Under the pieces are notes generated by a model. That model was not told where the DNA came from. It did no database searches and saw only the letters and a list, made by a program, of their open reading frames with translations. Below, piece after piece: positions 18,671 through 37,842 of a stretch of DNA of 64,000 nt. Both the position numbers and the translations under genes were made by a program. This DNA comes from Hyphomonas atlantica corrig. (GTDB taxonomy: Bacteria > Pseudomonadota > Alphaproteobacteria > Caulobacterales > Hyphomonadaceae), in assembly GCF_000682715.1 (NCBI RefSeq), contig NZ_AWFH01000002.1:1-64000 (forward strand), written 5' to 3'. Position 1 is the first letter of the stretch. Each line of letters opens with the position of its first letter.

Positions 18671-19414
18671 TTACTGCATGGTGCTTCCACCGTTCACACT
18701 GATTACCTGGCCGGTGACGAAACGGGCCTCGTCAAGACACAGATACGACACCATTGAGGCCACTTCGTCAGGTTCGGCAGACCGACCTTTCGGGATCACC
18801 GCCTCCATTTCGGCGACGATCGGATTGTTCGCCTCCTTGGCAGCAATCACTTGCGGCGTGAGCACCATGCATGGCGCGACCACATTCACCGTAATATCGT
18901 ATTGGGCATATTCTCTGGCCAATCCTGAGGCGATCGCATGCACCCCTCCCTTGGCCGCATTGTATATCGCGTGCATGACAAGCCCGTTGCGAACCGAATC
19001 TGCCCCGATGTTCACGATCCGCCCATAATCATGTTCCACCATGGACGGCAAGCTGGCGCGGGTTACCCAAAGCATGGTCCACAGATTGCGATCAATGGTC
19101 TGACGTATGGACGTCGGAGTATGATTGCGGGTCCAGTCAATTATGCCACCCCCGGCATTGTTCACCAGGATATCGACCGTGCCGAAACGCTGGATCGCGG
19201 CGCTTACAAAGTCCGATGCTGCATGCTCATCGCTCAGATCCGCGACACTGAGCAAAGGGTTTCCTCCAAGCTCCCGCCCTGCCCGGTCCAGGGCCTCCGG
19301 ATCAATATCGGCCAAAGCAATATTCGCCCCTCCCGCGGACAGGCGCCTTGCCACTGCGAGCCCGATCGGGCTCGCCCCCCCTGTTATGAGGGCGGTCTTG
19401 CCATGATATTTCAT
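18671..19414 (-). CDS. SDR-family dehydrogenase
   Basis: A 247-residue short-chain dehydrogenase with GGASPIG, NNAGGG, the catalytic Ser in NIGADS and YNAAKGG, ending FVTGQVISVNGGS. The pattern is of FabG-like enzymes acting on hydroxyacyl-CoA or alicyclic alcohols; ADIDP after the second strand favours NAD. Its ATG overlaps the stop of the extradiol dioxygenase gene by 4 bases, so both are made from the same message and probably act in successive steps. Confidence 0.87.
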   Translation of the reverse strand: MKYHGKTALITGGASPIGLAVARRLSAGGANIALADIDPEALDRAGRELGGNPLLSVADLSDEHAASDFVSAAIQRFGTVDILVNNAGGGIIDWTRNHTPTSIRQTIDRNLWTMLWVTRASLPSMVEHDYGRIVNIGADSVRNGLVMHAIYNAAKGGVHAIASGLAREYAQYDITVNVVAPCMVLTPQVIAAKEANNPIVAEMEAVIPKGRSAEPDEVASMVSYLCLDEARFVTGQVISVNGGSTMQ

Positions 19415-20331
19415 GATTTTGCAGTGTCTCCCAGAGGCTCAAGCGCGCCGACCTTCCCCATTCTGGGGTCTGGCACGCCGTCCCAGTAATCAATGGATTC
19501 CAGGGATGCCGGCATTTCTCGGGGCTGGCGTGGATTGGATTCCGGAAACTCCTCCATGCCATAGCTGTATTCGATCGTCATGCCATCGGGATCGAGAAAA
19601 TAGAGGAAGACCGATTCCGAAGGTGGATGCTTGCCTATTCCGTAAACGATCGGAACATCGGCTTTCTTCATCCGATTGGTAGCCTTGCCGATATCACCCA
19701 TTTCCGTAACCATGAAATTGACATGATTCAGCCCCGGCTTGCCCGCTGATCCGACGCCCAGGGAATGATGAAACGGATTGGGAAAACATCTCATGAAGGT
19801 CACGATTCCCTGAATGCGGTCCGAAACCCGAAAATTCATATGATCCATGAGAAAGGCCTCTGTAGCCTCCCTGTCTGGGCTGCTGAGCACCACATGCCCG
19901 AGCCGGGCAATCTGGGTATGGGTCGGATGATAGGCTTCCGGTGCCGCTGCCATTTCGGAATAGAATTCGAACGTGGCCCCCGTTGTCGGCTCTGTCATGC
20001 GAAAGGCTCGCCCGATCCTGAGCGCCTGCGTTTCGGCGTCTGAAACCGGCGCACAGGCGATGCCAATCGATGTGAGATGCGCCTCTATGGCGTCAAGCGC
20101 TTCCGGGCTTTCCATCTCCCAGCCGATTCTCTTAACGCCAGGCACTTCATGCTCATACAGGGCAATATCGTGATGCCGGTCACTGCATCGCAGATAGGCG
20201 ACACCTGAGGCGGGGCGCGCATCCATCTTCAATCCAACAAGCGTTTCATAGAAATTCACGCTGGCCTCCATATTGGTGACATTCAAACCAACATATCCGA
20301 GGCGCACATAGCGGATGGCATCGATTGACAT
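19411..20331 (-). CDS. VOC-family extradiol dioxygenase
   Basis: A 306-residue two-repeat vicinal-oxygen-chelate protein. The second repeat holds the 2-His-1-Glu iron set: His146 (LGHVVL), His203 (LNHVNFM) and Glu254 (MTIEYSYGMEEF). The first repeat has no full triad, as in type I extradiol dioxygenases. It should cleave a catechol-like ring meta to the hydroxyls. About half of its residues match the product at 36079-36984. GGGAGAAACGG precedes the ATG at 20331. It is coupled to an SDR and preceded by the MFS carrier on the same strand. Other VOC activities cannot be excluded from sequence alone. Confidence 0.82.
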   Translation of the reverse strand: MSIDAIRYVRLGYVGLNVTNMEASVNFYETLVGLKMDARPASGVAYLRCSDRHHDIALYEHEVPGVKRIGWEMESPEALDAIEAHLTSIGIACAPVSDAETQALRIGRAFRMTEPTTGATFEFYSEMAAAPEAYHPTHTQIARLGHVVLSSPDREATEAFLMDHMNFRVSDRIQGIVTFMRCFPNPFHHSLGVGSAGKPGLNHVNFMVTEMGDIGKATNRMKKADVPIVYGIGKHPPSESVFLYFLDPDGMTIEYSYGMEEFPESNPRQPREMPASLESIDYWDGVPDPRMGKVGALEPLGDTAKS

Positions 20332-20408
20332 TCCGTTTCTCCCTTTCAAGGAACGGCCCCGTCTCCCCAGAATTCATCCTGCGGATCAGCGCCTCTCCCA
20401 CTATCCCA

Positions 20409-22171: not shown

Positions 22172-22906
22172 ATGGCGGATTATGATGATCTGAACACGCG
22201 AAACCGGATCAAGGTTTCTGCAAGACGGCTGTTCGCCGAGCGCGGGGTTGAGGCCGTTACTGTTCGCGAGATTGTCGCTGCATCCGGGGCCAAGAATGGC
22301 GGTTCTCTGAATTATTACTTCAAGTCGAAAGAAGGCTTGATCCTTGAATTGCTCGCAGAAATCTTCCGGGAATCAAGTGATGGCTGGCTGATCGGATTGT
22401 CCGAGCTTGAAAAGAAGGGCGGTCCAGATTGCGTTCGCGATGTGGTCGAAGTACTTGTGCGGTGGCCCGATACGGCGACATTCACCGATCCCTCTCCCAC
22501 CGCCTCCAGATTCCTCAGCAGCCTGTTGTTTACCCGCCGGCATATGGTCCGGGATTTTCTTGAACAGATGAATTTCTCGGTCTTCGCCCGCCTTCTGGCC
22601 TATATTCAACTTCTGCAATCGGACATTCCTCCCGTCGTAATGCAGCAGAGGTTGATCTATTTTGCCTGGTACATCATGTCCTCCAAGGCGGCATATGAAT
22701 CCTATCAGGCGACGGGACGTCGAAACACCATCTGGACCGAATTCGATCCGATGGAGAATCTTATTGATACGGCGAGCGCCTTGATCGAGGCGCCTTGCAC
22801 CCGCGCAGAAATCACCATGGCCGGGTCCACAAACGCCAAGTCAGCCGGCGGTCGACGCAGACAATCGGCGATGCTTCAGGCCCTGGATGCTGCGCTTCCG
22901 CGATAG
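22172..22906 (+). CDS. TetR-family transcriptional regulator
   Basis: A 244-residue regulator. Residues 10-60 form the TetR helix-turn-helix (RLFAERGVEAVTVREIVAAS, then LNYYFKSKEGLI). The C-terminal ligand domain is helical and unassigned, with a basic tail. AGAGG precedes the ATG. It is divergent from the MFS gene and lies at the centre of the catabolic cluster. The repeated 17-bp palindrome found across the cluster is of the length TetR dimers bind, and a degenerate copy sits in front of this gene, so this is my candidate for the regulon's repressor. That link is inference. Confidence 0.88.
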   Translation: MADYDDLNTRNRIKVSARRLFAERGVEAVTVREIVAASGAKNGGSLNYYFKSKEGLILELLAEIFRESSDGWLIGLSELEKKGGPDCVRDVVEVLVRWPDTATFTDPSPTASRFLSSLLFTRRHMVRDFLEQMNFSVFARLLAYIQLLQSDIPPVVMQQRLIYFAWYIMSSKAAYESYQATGRRNTIWTEFDPMENLIDTASALIEAPCTRAEITMAGSTNAKSAGGRRRQSAMLQALDAALPR

Positions 22907-24088: not shown

Positions 24089-24871
24089 TCAGCTTTGGCG
24101 CGGTCGCATACCGAGATTCCGGCTCAGTCTGGAAGACTGGCGGAGTAGATGACCCGTAAGATCCGGAATCCGGGCCTCAGATTTTTCCGACCAGGTCATG
24201 GAGACAGACAGGGCCGCAAGCACGTCGCCCCATTCATCGCACACAGGTACAGCCACACACATCATGTCGTCTGCAATCTCACGATCATCGATTGCCATCC
24301 CCCTTGCCCGCACTTTTGCGAGTTCTCGGCGCAGACCATCGACCTCGGTTACCGTGCGGGTCGTGGCGGATACAAAGTCACCCTCAGACAGATATTCATC
24401 AAGCTGAGTTGGCTCCAATCCCGCCAGCAACACCTTCCCAACTGCTGAACAATAGGCTTCCAGTTGCATGCCTTCCTGCGTGAAACGTGCGCTATCATCT
24501 GCTGCCCCCGGGGATTTGACCAGATAGGTCACCATCCCGTCCTCCAGAACCCCAAGATGGCCCGTCAGGCCGGTTCGATGAGATAGATGTTGCACAAGGG
24601 GCCGCGCCGTGCGTGCGAGCTGGCTGTTGAAGGTCCGACCGGCCGCCAGTTTCACGGCCGTCAAGCCTATATCATACCTGCCCCGTCCGACCCTGGCGAT
24701 CATGCCCTGCCGCAGGAGTTCCGCGGCAAGCCGATGCGCCGTCGAGGTCGAGAGGCCGAGTTCGTGGCTCAAACGTGCAAATGGCGTACGTGCCCCGTCT
24801 TCAACGATGCGTTGGTACAGCGCCAGTGACCGTCCCAATGTGCAGGAATCGCGTGGAGGTGTCTCACTCAT
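24089..24871 (-). CDS. IclR-family transcriptional regulator
   Basis: A 260-residue IclR protein: winged helix (LSHELGLSTSTAHRLAAELL, about residues 37-56) and the IclR effector domain with AYCSAVGKVLLA and DREIADDMMCVAVPVCDE. Start 24871 follows GGGAAA closely; an upstream in-frame ATG at 24922 would overlap the divergent reading frame. It is divergent from the hydratase/dehydrogenase/aldolase operon with 108 bases between, so it most likely controls that operon in response to an aromatic metabolite, as PcaU/MhpR-type IclR proteins do. Confidence 0.88.
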   Translation of the reverse strand: MSETPPRDSCTLGRSLALYQRIVEDGARTPFARLSHELGLSTSTAHRLAAELLRQGMIARVGRGRYDIGLTAVKLAAGRTFNSQLARTARPLVQHLSHRTGLTGHLGVLEDGMVTYLVKSPGAADDSARFTQEGMQLEAYCSAVGKVLLAGLEPTQLDEYLSEGDFVSATTRTVTEVDGLRRELAKVRARGMAIDDREIADDMMCVAVPVCDEWGDVLAALSVSMTWSEKSEARIPDLTGHLLRQSSRLSRNLGMRPRQS

Positions 24872-24979
24872 TTTCCCAAAATACAGGAAAAACACCAGGG
24901 CCACAAATTGATTATCCCACACATCTCGAATACCGACCTAAAACAATCCAACAAGAAAATCACGGGAGAGTTTATATCA

Positions 24980-33982: not shown

Positions 33983-34504
33983 TTATACGATAATGCTGAT
34001 CCGCCCCTGAGGGCGAAGCGTGTTCATATCGATCTGCGTCCGTTTCGCCATGATCTTAAAATTGCCGCTGGCGAAGCTCAGCGTGTACAGATGATGACCG
34101 CAAAACATATCCGTGACGTCATTCTTGGAACGGTGCGTAATGAACCGGCTCGCCACTTTGCAAACACCCTCATCGTGATCCAGGAGTCTCACATTTCCAA
34201 TCATTCGAGAGCAGATGGATCGAGGCCATTCTGAATGATTGCCCCGCTTCTTGAGTCGCTCGACACGATGGCGAAGGCGGAAATAATTATCTGATATGTA
34301 AAACAGATTGGTAGACGAGCTTGCCTCGTCTGAAGCTCCCGCCTGGGGCACCTCATAGCTTCCCCCTTCCTGAAACAAGGCAAACCAGTCATCGAGCCGC
34401 CATTCATCAAGCATCGCAGCCTCCTCATAAAGAAAGGCCTCAATCTCCCGATGATCCAGCTCCGCGCCGGATGCCAATCCGCTCTTCCCGCTCGTCAAGC
34501 TCAT
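33983..34504 (-). CDS. Rieske dioxygenase beta subunit
   Basis: A 173-residue ring-hydroxylating dioxygenase small subunit: AFLYEEAAMLDEWRLDDWFAL near the N-terminus, DNYFRLRHRVERL and the family's R.I.N V SRFITHRS strand, with a NTF2-like fold. It stabilises the alpha3beta3 oxygenase. Its ATG at 34504 overlaps the alpha subunit stop by 4 bases, fixing the start and showing coupled translation. An in-frame ATG at 34546 lies inside alpha. Confidence 0.9.
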   Translation of the reverse strand: MSLTSGKSGLASGAELDHREIEAFLYEEAAMLDEWRLDDWFALFQEGGSYEVPQAGASDEASSSTNLFYISDNYFRLRHRVERLKKRGNHSEWPRSICSRMIGNVRLLDHDEGVCKVASRFITHRSKNDVTDMFCGHHLYTLSFASGNFKIMAKRTQIDMNTLRPQGRISIIV

Positions 34505-35787
34505 GCCCGATCCTCCATCCGGTCTGACCATTCTCTCCAAAAACACCGCATCTGCTCTTCATCCGTCGCTTCGAATTTGGGCTTCAGCATGCCTCTGGAA
34601 ATGTCATTCCATGCCAGCTCATCCAAGGCCGCATATCCTCTTTGGGCGGATTCGAGTGCTTCGACGTCGTCAGGGGTCGCGAATCCGCCGGGTCCGAGAA
34701 ATTCAAGAAAATTATCCAGGCGTCGCTTCCGGAAACCTTCGGACTCCCCCTTCACGCCGAGTGCCCAGGCACTGACATTCATGTTGTTTGGTGCCAGGGG
34801 ATAAAAGGTCCTGATTGTGACGGCCATGATGTCATTGATGACAAGATTGGGAAAGATCCCCGTATTCCGCCCCAGCATGGCAATCCTGTTGGCGTGTTCC
34901 TCGCCCACCCGTGAGACAAGTTCGCGCTTGATTTGCGCAATTTCCGATTTTGCATCCTCTCCCCAGGCCGGGATCCATTTGGCAACCGGCCGGCCCCATG
35001 GAGCATTGCCCTCAATCGCAGCATGACCATTCTGAAGATTCCAGACATGGGTCTCTGCAGGCATTTCTGCAGCGCCCCCGATCGCATCTGCGAGATACTC
35101 AAAATACGTGCCGTGCGTATCGATGGCATGATAGCCATCATAACTGTTCTCCATGAGGAGTTTCCAGTTCGCGCGTATACTGTATTTCTGCTCACCCCCA
35201 ATGACCTCCATCCCATCAGGTCCGTGATCACAAAGCATGTCGAGAATGCTCCGTGCATCTGCCAGATAAGTTTCCAGAGACACCGCCCCAGCATCATAGT
35301 TGAGAAAGTAGAAGCCCCGATATTCTGCGAGTTTGGGTACACTTCTGAGATTTGCGCACCCATCGGAATTGAAATCGTCCGGATATGTGCCCGGTGGCAT
35401 GCGCGTGGCAAATTTCCCGTTATTGTTGAAGGCCCAGCCATGATAAAAACACTTGAAAGCCAATGCGTTTCCGCGGGCCTCTCGCTCCACCATTGCCCCC
35501 CGGTGCGGGCACGTATTCATGAAGGCATGAAACGCGCCCTGCCTGTCGCGATTGAATATCACTTCCTTGCCGCCCACATTTCGGGTGAGGAAATCATTGG
35601 CTTTGGACAATTCCGACTCGTGTCCGAGATAGAGCCAGCACCGGTTGAAGATCCGGTCTCGTTCCCGGGTCAAAATATCTTCATCCACGAAGCTCTTTCG
35701 CGCCACCCTGAACAGGCCGCGCTCTCGGTCATCTATGATATAGGGGCTGATGCGAGTCTCTCGCCTGTCAATGTCTGTAACACTCAT
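34501..35787 (-). CDS. Rieske [2Fe-2S] ring-hydroxylating dioxygenase alpha subunit
   Basis: A 428-residue oxygenase large subunit. Rieske ligands are Cys93, His95, Cys113 and His116 (NTCPHRG, CFYHGW). The mononuclear iron site is His220 and His225 in ENSYDGYHAIDTH, with bridging Asp217. It should insert O2 into an aromatic ring or hydroxylate a ring substituent with electrons from a ferredoxin. A second ATG 54 bases upstream (35841) has GGTG before it and cannot be excluded as the start. Promoter and operator are seen upstream (see 35915). No dihydrodiol dehydrogenase of the usual type follows; one of the SDRs could fill that role. Confidence 0.92.
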   Translation of the reverse strand: MSVTDIDRRETRISPYIIDDRERGLFRVARKSFVDEDILTRERDRIFNRCWLYLGHESELSKANDFLTRNVGGKEVIFNRDRQGAFHAFMNTCPHRGAMVEREARGNALAFKCFYHGWAFNNNGKFATRMPPGTYPDDFNSDGCANLRSVPKLAEYRGFYFLNYDAGAVSLETYLADARSILDMLCDHGPDGMEVIGGEQKYSIRANWKLLMENSYDGYHAIDTHGTYFEYLADAIGGAAEMPAETHVWNLQNGHAAIEGNAPWGRPVAKWIPAWGEDAKSEIAQIKRELVSRVGEEHANRIAMLGRNTGIFPNLVINDIMAVTIRTFYPLAPNNMNVSAWALGVKGESEGFRKRRLDNFLEFLGPGGFATPDDVEALESAQRGYAALDELAWNDISRGMLKPKFEATDEEQMRCFWREWSDRMEDRA

Positions 35788-35914
35788 GATGCGCTTCACT
35801 CCGGATATACGGGCCGGCAGATCGGGTCCGTAGTCATTCACCTGTGTGCGGTGCCACTTTTGGGCCCCGCACGGTTACAATGTTCCACCCCCTGAATTTA
35901 GGGAGCTCTCACAT

Positions 35915-35925
35915 TGGTTGGACCA
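35915..35925. promoter_or_regulatory. FadR/GntR-type operator at the Rieske promoter
   Basis: TGGT-TGG-ACCA. On the minus strand a TTGACA box (35950-35945), a 16-base spacer and TAATGG (35928-35923) form a promoter for the Rieske genes, and the operator overlaps its -10. It lies within a longer direct repeat (35913-35939). Confidence 0.65.
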
Positions 35926-36006
35926 TTATTCCATTAAGTCGGTCTGTCAATCAGGTCGCCTGCGACAATTCGGAACTGGTCTCTGCCGCGTCTCCCCCGG
36001 CCCACC

Positions 36007-36036
36007 TTGACACACATGTGCCGGCCCCTGTATTGG
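36007..36036 (+). promoter_or_regulatory. sigma70-like promoter of the extradiol dioxygenase gene
   Basis: TTGACA at 36007-36012, 18-base spacer, TATTGG at 36031-36036. The GntR-type operator at 36034-36044 overlaps the -10 box, the same geometry as the divergent promoter. Confidence 0.5.
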
Positions 36037-36044
36037 TCCTACCA
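36034..36044. promoter_or_regulatory. FadR/GntR-type operator at the extradiol dioxygenase promoter
   Basis: TGGT-CCT-ACCA, 34 bases before the ATG at 36079. It sits at the same place in the repeat 36032-36058 as the operator in 35913-35939. Confidence 0.65.
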
Positions 36045-36078
36045 TTATGCCATTAAACGGCTTCTGGGAGATTTGAAC

Positions 36079-36984
36079 ATGGACCGATCAAATGCGCGGT
36101 ATCAACGGCTCGGCTATCTGGCCTTGAACGTGTCGGATCTGGAAAGGTCTGCCAGGTTTTATGAGGATATTGTGGGGCTGCAGCGCAGTGAAACCCGGGG
36201 CAATAGCGTGTTCTTCCGTTGCAGCGATCGCCATCACGATATTGTCCTCCACAAAGCGCCAACCCCCGGTCTCAAACGCATTGGATGGCAGATGGAAGCC
36301 GCCACTCAGGTGCAGACACTGGAACAGCATTTCCATGGTCTGGGCATTCCGACACAACGCGTCTCTAACCGGGAGGCTGTAGACTTGGCGATCGATGGCG
36401 GTTTTCGCATGAGAGAGCCGACAACAGGCGTCCTGATGGAGTTCTATTCCCACATGGACACGGCCAGCGAGGTTTTTCATCCAGGCCATACAAAGATTGA
36501 GCGGCTCGGGCATGTTGTCCTGGCCAGCGCCGACATGGCGGAGACTGAGAAGTTTTTTGCGGAGAATATGAATTTCAAGGTATCGGATCGCATCGAGAAT
36601 GGCGTGGTCCATATGCGCTGCTTTCCAAATCCGCTTCACCACTCCTTCGGTATTGGCGCCGGCCAGGCAGCTCAGCTCCACCATGTCAATTTCATGGTGA
36701 CGGACATGGATGATATTGGTCGGGCAAACACGCGGATGAAGTCGCACAAAATTCCAATTGTGTATGGTCCAGGCAAGCATCCCCAGTCCGAATCGGTCTT
36801 CTTCTATTTTCTCGATCCCGATGGCCTTACCCTCGAATACAGCTACGGCATGGAAGAGTTTCCCGAACAGGATGCGCGCGCACCGAGGCTGTTCCCGATG
36901 AAGGTGGAATCGGTGGATCATTGGGGAGGCCTCCCTGAGCCGGATTTCGCTAAAGTCGGCGCGATTGAAACGGCTGAGACATGA
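36079..36984 (+). CDS. VOC-family extradiol dioxygenase, paralogue of 19411-20331
   Basis: A 301-residue two-repeat VOC protein. The likely iron ligands are His145 (LGHVVL), His202 (LHHVNFM) and Glu253 (LTLEYSYGMEEF). It aligns end to end with the other extradiol enzyme, sharing CSDRHHDI, MREPTTG, MRCFPNP and SESVF-YFLDPDG. GGGAG precedes the ATG at 36079; an earlier ATG at 36007 is actually the -35 region. Divergent from the Rieske genes and sharing their operator, so ring hydroxylation and cleavage are probably induced together. Confidence 0.85.
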   Translation: MDRSNARYQRLGYLALNVSDLERSARFYEDIVGLQRSETRGNSVFFRCSDRHHDIVLHKAPTPGLKRIGWQMEAATQVQTLEQHFHGLGIPTQRVSNREAVDLAIDGGFRMREPTTGVLMEFYSHMDTASEVFHPGHTKIERLGHVVLASADMAETEKFFAENMNFKVSDRIENGVVHMRCFPNPLHHSFGIGAGQAAQLHHVNFMVTDMDDIGRANTRMKSHKIPIVYGPGKHPQSESVFFYFLDPDGLTLEYSYGMEEFPEQDARAPRLFPMKVESVDHWGGLPEPDFAKVGAIETAET

Positions 36985-37113: not shown

Positions 37114-37842
37114 ATGTCCTCCAGTTCCTTCTTGCCAGTCCAATCCCGGCGCCTGTTCGAAGACGTATGCGATCAAATACGGGCTCAAATCGCCGATGGT
37201 GCGCTTGGCCCCGGTGACAAGCTTCCGGCTGAACGCGACCTGGCTGCGCAGTTCGGAATCAGTCGGACCGCCGTACGCGAAGCCTTGCGGAGTCTCGAAT
37301 TTGCAGGTCTCATCGAGTTGAAGAAGGGGGCTCATGGCGGTGCCTTCGTCCTCGGCCGTGACATGGGACTGGTCCTTCCCTTTCAAAGCATACTTGACGT
37401 CGGGCACCTCTCTCTGCGTGAACTGACAGACGCACGTATTGAAATACAGGACGTGGTCGTGCGTCTTGCATGCTCACATGCGACTCAAGAGAATCTCGAC
37501 GCGCTCGATGCCGACATTCAGCAGACCCGCCAGCATCTGCAACAAGGCACAGCTGGCACTGACCCTTCAGCCACACAGAATTTTTATTCATTGCTCGCCG
37601 AAGCAACCGGGAACCGAGTGCTCGTTGTACTGGTCAAGGCGCTTTCACAAATGGTCTATCAGGCAATTCACCCGCTTCATCGCCCCCTGAACTTCGATCT
37701 GGTCAGTGTACGTTCACGCTTTGTTGAATGCATGCGATCCCGGGATGTCGAAGGCGCTCAGCAGATCATGCGAAACTATCTGGAGTTCTTGCACCAGCAT
37801 ATCGTGGCCGAGGACGCAAATCGGGACCAAGCGGCCAGATAG
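37114..37842 (+). CDS. GntR-family (FadR subgroup) regulator
   Basis: A 242-residue regulator. The winged helix (KLPAERDLAAQFGISRTAVR, about residues 34-53) is followed by an FCD ligand domain (ARIEIQDVVVRLACSHATQE and later metal-type His residues). FadR-subgroup proteins bind TGGTnnnACCA-like sites, and two such sites lie 1.1-1.2 kb upstream at the divergent dioxygenase promoters. It is therefore the likely regulator of those genes, responding to an acid or CoA-linked intermediate. It is 129 bases after the extradiol gene in the same direction. Confidence 0.88.
   Translation: MSSSSFLPVQSRRLFEDVCDQIRAQIADGALGPGDKLPAERDLAAQFGISRTAVREALRSLEFAGLIELKKGAHGGAFVLGRDMGLVLPFQSILDVGHLSLRELTDARIEIQDVVVRLACSHATQENLDALDADIQQTRQHLQQGTAGTDPSATQNFYSLLAEATGNRVLVVLVKALSQMVYQAIHPLHRPLNFDLVSVRSRFVECMRSRDVEGAQQIMRNYLEFLHQHIVAEDANRDQAAR

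Follow-up and report, generated by a model that had tools for sequence, protein, structure and literature searches.

Two conserved operator sites in a divergent aromatic-degradation region of Hyphomonas atlantica and the GntR/FCD regulator that probably reads them

Two closely similar sites lie in the 291-bp intergenic region between a Rieske oxygenase gene and an extradiol dioxygenase gene of Hyphomonas atlantica, and they raise the question of which regulator reads them, and whether they are read jointly or one by one. The locus belongs to a 64,000-nucleotide stretch of DNA, called the window here, and the region itself is bounded by the ATG of the Rieske alpha gene at 35787 (minus strand) and that of the dioxygenase at 36079 (plus strand). 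A sequence-only reading of the locus had described a 27-bp direct repeat with few differences and a TGGTnnnACCA element in each copy, and this description is accurate: copy 1 (from 35913, ATTGGTTGGACCATTATTCCATTAAGT) and copy 2 (from 36032, ATTGGTCCTACCATTATGCCATTAAAC) agree at 21 of 27 positions, the mismatches fall exactly where claimed—in the 3-base spacer, at one internal base and at the final two bases—and the two elements occupy 35915-35925 and 36034-36044. Less apt was the term "mirror-image" for the promoters: these would diverge, whereas the repeats run in the same direction and the operator is close to a palindrome. When the 291-bp region was shuffled 20,000 times with dinucleotides preserved, at least one site appeared in 206 shuffles and two sites in none; a pair within one region is thus not a chance outcome. 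The same region contains 18-nt inverted arms (35805-35822 and 36016-36033; 83% complementary, 193 nt apart), a probable coincidence.

Table 1. Features of the divergent region and its flanking genes, in window coordinates.
Feature	Position	Strand	Basis or remark
Ring-hydroxylating oxygenase beta subunit, likely same operon as alpha	33983..34546	-	Pfam Ring_hydroxyl_B
Rieske ring-hydroxylating oxygenase alpha subunit (target)	34501..35787	-	Pfam Rieske + Ring_hydroxyl_A
Operator 1, Rieske side, AWTGGTnnnACCAWT	35913..35927	.	Motif; kept upstream of Rieske alpha in 9/9 genomes
Repeat copy 1 extension with CCATTA box	35928..35937	+	Window and near-identical relatives only
TTGACA, likely Rieske -35 box	35945..35950	-	19-nt gap to TGGT, same in H. 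chukchiensis
TTGACA, likely dioxygenase -35 box	36007..36012	+	21-nt gap to TGGT, same in H. chukchiensis
Operator 2, dioxygenase side, AWTGGTnnnACCAWT	36032..36046	.	Motif; kept in 7/7 genomes with aligned dioxygenase N-terminus
Repeat copy 2 extension with CCATTA box (same box as copy 1)	36047..36056	+	Window and near-identical relatives only
Extradiol dioxygenase (target)	36079..36984	+	Pfam Glyoxalase superfamily
GntR/FCD regulator, FadR subfamily, likely binder of both operators	37114..37842	+	Pfam GntR + FCD

The relatives of the extradiol dioxygenase in the PDB are catechol and homoprotocatechuate 2,3-dioxygenases. Its neighborhood holds a hydrolase nearest to HsaD/BphD and a relative of 2-keto-4-pentenoate hydratase, neither of which reaches its NCBIfam cut-off, together with a 4-hydroxy-2-oxovalerate aldolase and an acetaldehyde dehydrogenase that both score above theirs. 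By these annotations the neighboring genes fit a meta-cleavage pathway, in a host that is probably a marine bacterium. There is also a second extradiol dioxygenase gene (19411-20349, minus strand), its product 56% identical to the first over the matched part, which accompanies the cluster in each of the nine genomes compared below and has the operator upstream in none of them.

The window has four matches to TGGTnnnACCA against 0.56 expected, a number reached in 1 of 100 shuffles. Genome-wide, the bare 12-mer TTGGTnnnACCA occurs near chance, with 23 matches versus 18 for the reversed control; these represent 21 distinct places, and only L005, L007 and L008 lie outside open frames of at least 150 aa (L008 is so counted as its frame is merely a TTG-extended dioxygenase start). 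The extended 23-mer, allowing up to three mismatches, finds the two places described here and no others in the 3.6-Mb genome, and so does the 15-bp form AWTGGTnnnACCAWT, the reversed control being 0 for each. This 15-bp form has 2, 3 and 4 places in G070, G038 and G052, respectively, with the cluster operators accounting for two in each and the reversed control again 0; the three extra places (G038, G052) sit within mechanical open frames of at least 100 aa. Across the whole genomes of seven relatives, WTGGTAWTACCAW has 12 places, 12 of which are cluster operators (reversed control, 1 place, in G044). AWTGGTnnnACCAWT does occur outside the cluster, once each in G036 and G037 and twice in G030, and family-wide it reaches 122 places in 60 of 105 genomes (reversed controls, 8), as expected for an operator form that is used throughout a subfamily. 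A motif this common in the family, and near chance genome-wide in its bare form, was rejected as proof by itself; the regulator claim rests on where the sites lie, not on how many there are.

Location was followed through nine genomes, comprising the window's and eight relatives but not the near-identical G052 and G070, with 48 window proteins mapped onto the clusters fetched from the relatives. The GntR query matches in 11 of 105 family genomes (E ≤ 1e-30) and the dioxygenase query in 12 of 398 order genomes (E ≤ 1e-60), both counts including the window's genome and two near-identical relatives; the dioxygenase match in G044 and G056 is a paralogue, related to 19411-20349. Within 300 bp upstream, AWTGGTnnnACCAWT precedes the Rieske alpha gene in 9/9 genomes, the extradiol dioxygenase gene in 7/7 genomes where its 5' end is intact, and the other cluster genes tested in 0 of 169 cases. 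A gene entered the count if its alignment reached 35% identity and began no later than residue 25, and if 150 bp or more of upstream sequence was available. The sequences used were the window plus 17 stretches fetched for comparison (L069-L085); L086 (G097), L087 (G035), L088 (G464) and L032 (Chachezhania), in which close orthologues of both targets are absent, had been scanned for the motif and were left out of the count. In G044 and G056 the dioxygenase remnants fail these criteria, and no operator precedes them. Also outside the 169 are gntR (6/8) and the 57179 relatives (5/9), because operator regions are common to them in rearranged clusters.

In H. chukchiensis both sites again share one intergenic region. 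The clusters of G036, G037, G030 and G007 have undergone rearrangement: gntR and the Rieske gene are divergently oriented there, the operators are 7.0-9.3 kb apart, and each target retains its own. In six genomes the space between the Rieske gene and gntR contains an operator. In G044 and G056, where the dioxygenase is a C-terminal remnant (L074 5627-5932, L075 4861-5181), its operator is missing and the Rieske operator is kept. G035 encodes more distant relatives of both targets (Rieske 45%, dioxygenase 38-39%) and has no GntR match at 1e-30; its 20-kb stretch contains no TGGTnnnACCA. The pairing of regulator and targets had been called unusually clear on the strength of the motif, which is too generous, because TGGTnnnACCA is a common FadR-subfamily operator form; what holds is that the operator tracks both targets through rearrangement and, where gntR diverges from the Rieske gene, separates the two, and that the regulator keeps its contact residues. 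Comparison with the relatives thus suggests that both sites are binding sites of the adjacent GntR protein.

Conservation also delimits the operator. Between the intergenic regions of the window and H. chukchiensis, 150 of 305 columns are identical. Operator 1 provides the longest stretch of identity (17 bp), and part of operator 2, both TTGAC boxes and CTGCGACA are further such stretches. Over 16 operators the half-site AWTGGT is present in 32 of 32 cases. Beyond the 15-bp core, the 27-bp repeat is restricted to the window and its near-identical relatives and is absent from H. chukchiensis, and the repeat was accordingly rejected as the conserved unit, which, as judged from these alignments, is the 15-bp operator. 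The CTGCGACA stretch reads TTGTCGCAGG on the other strand (35959-35968), just upstream of the Rieske -35 box; TTGTCGCAGG has no further exact copy in the window, and at up to one mismatch the stretch finds 5 matches versus 4.96 expected, leading us to drop it.

A TTGAC box stands upstream of each of the 20 oriented operators, a count that includes two near-identical relatives, at a gap of 11-27 nt that is constant for a given target and clade, except in G005; in the second clade the dioxygenase operator begins just 11 nt past TTGACx. The ATTTTAGTTTGACA run upstream of the Rieske operator is identical in six second-clade genomes (L037-L042), an unusually constant -35 region. Each operator had been said to overlap a promoter -10. 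The upstream TTGACA boxes are clear and conserved, but a strict sigma-70 scan of the region found no promoter, and for this reason the overlap is something we infer rather than read directly.

The regulator itself was correctly recognized as a FadR-subgroup GntR protein encoded at 37114, with both of its domains above the Pfam cut-offs (GntR 70.7 bits, FCD 58.1 bits). Three FCD genes were detected in the genome, this one included, and the ~3.4-kb stretches surrounding the other two contain no TGGTnnnACCA. Identical proteins (100%) are encoded in two assemblies, Hyphomonas sp. UBA5111 and an uncultured Hyphomonadaceae bacterium, and the protein of H. chukchiensis BH-BN04-4 is 82% identical. All 10 aligned homologues retain the FadR DNA-contact residues Glu34, Arg35, Arg45 and Arg49; Thr46, also shared with E. 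coli FadR, as is a related operator, varies among them, while FadR His65 is Lys here. Orthology to FadR itself was rejected at 34.9 bits versus a cut-off of 249.2 (TIGR02812), as was orthology to PdhR at 84.9 bits versus 330 (NF007001); among the NCBIfam matches listed, which also include NanR (107.5) and LldR (90.3), none reached its cut-off. The features that are present—the GntR winged helix with an FCD domain, Arg35/Arg45/Arg49, and TKGT-n3-ACMA at the target genes—identify the protein, on sequence criteria, as a member of the FadR subfamily and not FadR. The Asp/Asn-x3-His metal pair of FCD domains corresponds, by alignment only, to Thr154-x3-Tyr158 in the window protein, with Tyr in all 10 homologues. 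An AlphaFold model built from three sequences (mean pLDDT 74, pTM 0.56) is too weak to judge the FCD pocket; its Foldseek matches are GntR/FCD regulators, at TM-scores of 0.36-0.58 among the matches listed.

Known systems offer several points of comparison. TGGTnnnACCA-type sites are a common operator form in the FadR subfamily, shared by PdhR, LldR, GlcC and others, for which the consensus is given as TKGT-n3-ACMA (PMC4494728). The same source documents divergons in which two sites exert separate control, and they resemble the present locus in their TKGT-n3-ACMA operators and in the placement of each site near its own operon; unlike here, Hyphomonas and dioxygenase or aromatic targets were not found by a text search of PMC4494728. 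The E. coli PdhR box, (A)ATTGGTnnnACCAAT(T), is nearly the same operator, and PdhR is likewise a GntR/FCD protein (PMC7660256), but PdhR governs central metabolism and the targets here are local aromatic genes. The GntR repressors BphS and AphS control biphenyl and phenol meta-cleavage genes (PMC6449761, PMC10282184), and so share with this locus GntR-family control over ring hydroxylation and meta-cleavage. Their operator, in contrast, is AAATmTCGAkATTT (PMC6449761), which at up to three mismatches has 5 matches in the window versus 6.59 expected and none in the intergenic region, and a regulator of the BphS/AphS type was rejected on this difference in operator alone. Agrobacterium Atu1419 is similar in that this FCD protein represses an aromatic-acid pathway through two operators sharing a divergent region, and dissimilar in its operator, ATGTATACAT, and its tetrameric state (PMC7797058). 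Its zinc site is formed by Asn137, His141, His192 and His214 (PMC7797058), the Asn-x3-His pair of which aligns with the Thr154-x3-Tyr158 noted above; a metal-binding FCD type (Atu1419, TM0439, LldR) was set aside on that alignment.

We consider it probable, at roughly 0.8, that the GntR/FCD protein is a local repressor acting through two independent operators, one over the Rieske promoter and one over the ring-cleavage promoter, from which an effector releases it. What has been computed comprises the sites and their linkage, in nine genomes, to the two target genes, along with the DNA-contact residues and the conservation of the TTGAC boxes; binding by GntR, repression rather than activation, the effector and read-through into gntR are what we infer. 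One dimer would bind each AWTGGTnnnACCAWT palindrome, independently of the other. The Rieske promoter would be covered by operator 1 and the dioxygenase promoter by operator 2, both a short way past the respective TTGAC box; a dimer bound there would block RNA polymerase, and it is from this position that the sign of control is deduced. Release would come when the FCD pocket is filled by a metabolite of the pathway, perhaps an aromatic acid, its CoA thioester or a product of ring cleavage; the dimer would then leave the DNA and both operons would be transcribed. The regulator would also govern itself: in the window gntR is probably co-transcribed behind the dioxygenase across a 130-bp gap, and in the second clade gntR and the Rieske gene point away from each other on either side of an operator, making self-regulation likely in both arrangements.

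Several other arrangements could produce part of this picture. Two like sites in one intergenic region invite the idea that a tetramer, or two dimers, bridges them and loops the intervening DNA, as proposed for the tetrameric FCD repressor Atu1419, for which looping between sites at a distance of 190 bp was observed (PMC7797058). The spacing argues otherwise: 119 bp (window) and 122 bp (H. chukchiensis) are not in phase, and four relatives retain both sites at 7.0-9.3 kb. We rejected joint action on this variability and regard it as very unlikely; two sites, each near its own operon at variable spacing, are what a double-site divergon with separate control would present. It is easier to entertain, though still unlikely, that the working operator is the entire 27-bp repeat, with CCATTA as a third half-site beyond the palindrome. 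The box lies ~10 nt from the operator centre in both copies, the repeat persists in two near-identical relatives, and the GntR family is known to have additional, weaker half-sites at 7-12 nt from the centre (PMC4494728); yet H. chukchiensis lacks an extra box at that offset, the second clade has none in a consistent place, and the repeat could equally well stem from local copying.

Nor is it settled by family membership that the protein represses, since GntR-family proteins of similar pathways differ in sign: BphS represses, and BphR1 activates the bph genes of strain KF707 (PMC10282184). Activation of one or both operons by GntR is nonetheless a poor prospect, given that all 20 operators lie downstream of TTGAC at a distance where a bound protein is expected to block polymerase. 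Finally, another protein might read the sites, whether a distant GntR or the product of the TetR gene (22172-22906, plus strand) or the IclR gene (24089-24922, minus strand), both of which accompany the cluster in 8/8 relatives, although in G038 on a different contig from the operators. G005 lends this some appeal, as it retains both operators while no gntR orthologue was found there (best match 28%). In that genome a transposase pair (Pfam HTH_Tnp_1 and rve; L085 12816-13969, L084) adjoins the Rieske operator near a contig end and the dioxygenase has an in-frame TGA, so that the cluster may be decaying while its operators persist. Reading by another regulator is opposed by the FadR-subfamily form of the site (PMC4494728), by the operator that separates gntR from the Rieske gene in six genomes, by the lack of motifs near the other two FCD genes, and by a count of 0/9 for the motif upstream of the TetR gene and 0/4 upstream of the IclR gene, and we think it highly improbable. 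Repression by the adjacent GntR protein at two separate operators remains our preferred account.

As far as comparison can establish it, the finding is real, well supported and ordinary in kind. The layout is documented; what seems new is this regulator-target set, a switch of ordinary kind at a newly described place. No publication joining Hyphomonas and GntR was found in the literature searched, nor, by title, was this set found in work on Hyphomonas aromatic catabolism or on GntR with extradiol dioxygenases or meta-cleavage, and it seems undescribed there. The general picture of GntR regulation is unchanged, but the aromatic-degradation cluster of Hyphomonas relatives gains an assigned regulator, two operators and two target operons.

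A broader proposal can be made only tentatively: that these proteins may form an undescribed orthologous group of FadR-subfamily repressors, so far mainly in Hyphomonadaceae, with two operators per genome serving the Rieske and ring-cleaving dioxygenase genes of one meta-cleavage pathway, metal-free sensing in the FCD domain, and co-change of the operator triplet with residue 46. With the canonical metal pair lost from the pocket, an aromatic or CoA-linked effector would be sensed without metal. At residue 46 the window and H. chukchiensis proteins have Thr, six second-clade proteins Pro, and those of G464 and Chachezhania Asn; the central triplet of the operator is AAT/ATT in 12/12 sites of the second clade and G005, and TGG/CCA or CCT/AGG in the window and H. 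chukchiensis. This apparent co-change reflects a single clade split and is a lead only, but if true it would amount to a natural experiment, on a small scale, in spacer reading by FadR-type proteins. A ready test set is at hand in 16 operators from nine genomes and a single protein family, with a clade split in the spacer that tracks one recognition-helix residue.

More distant homologues show traces of related sites. GntR homologues of 35-42% identity in G464, G197, G268 and G097 have no exact motif nearby; in G268 (L046 1330-1450) three one-mismatch operator forms lie just upstream of a 36% homologue and are possibly a diverged operator cluster. In G019, a genome without this GntR at 1e-30, contig 70 carries an AWTGGTnnnACCAWT pair at 103158 and 103262, 104 bp apart, perhaps a double-site operator for a different FadR-type regulator. 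In Chachezhania, a 32% GntR homologue has the exact motif, as TTGGTATTACCAA, 130 bp upstream of its gene.
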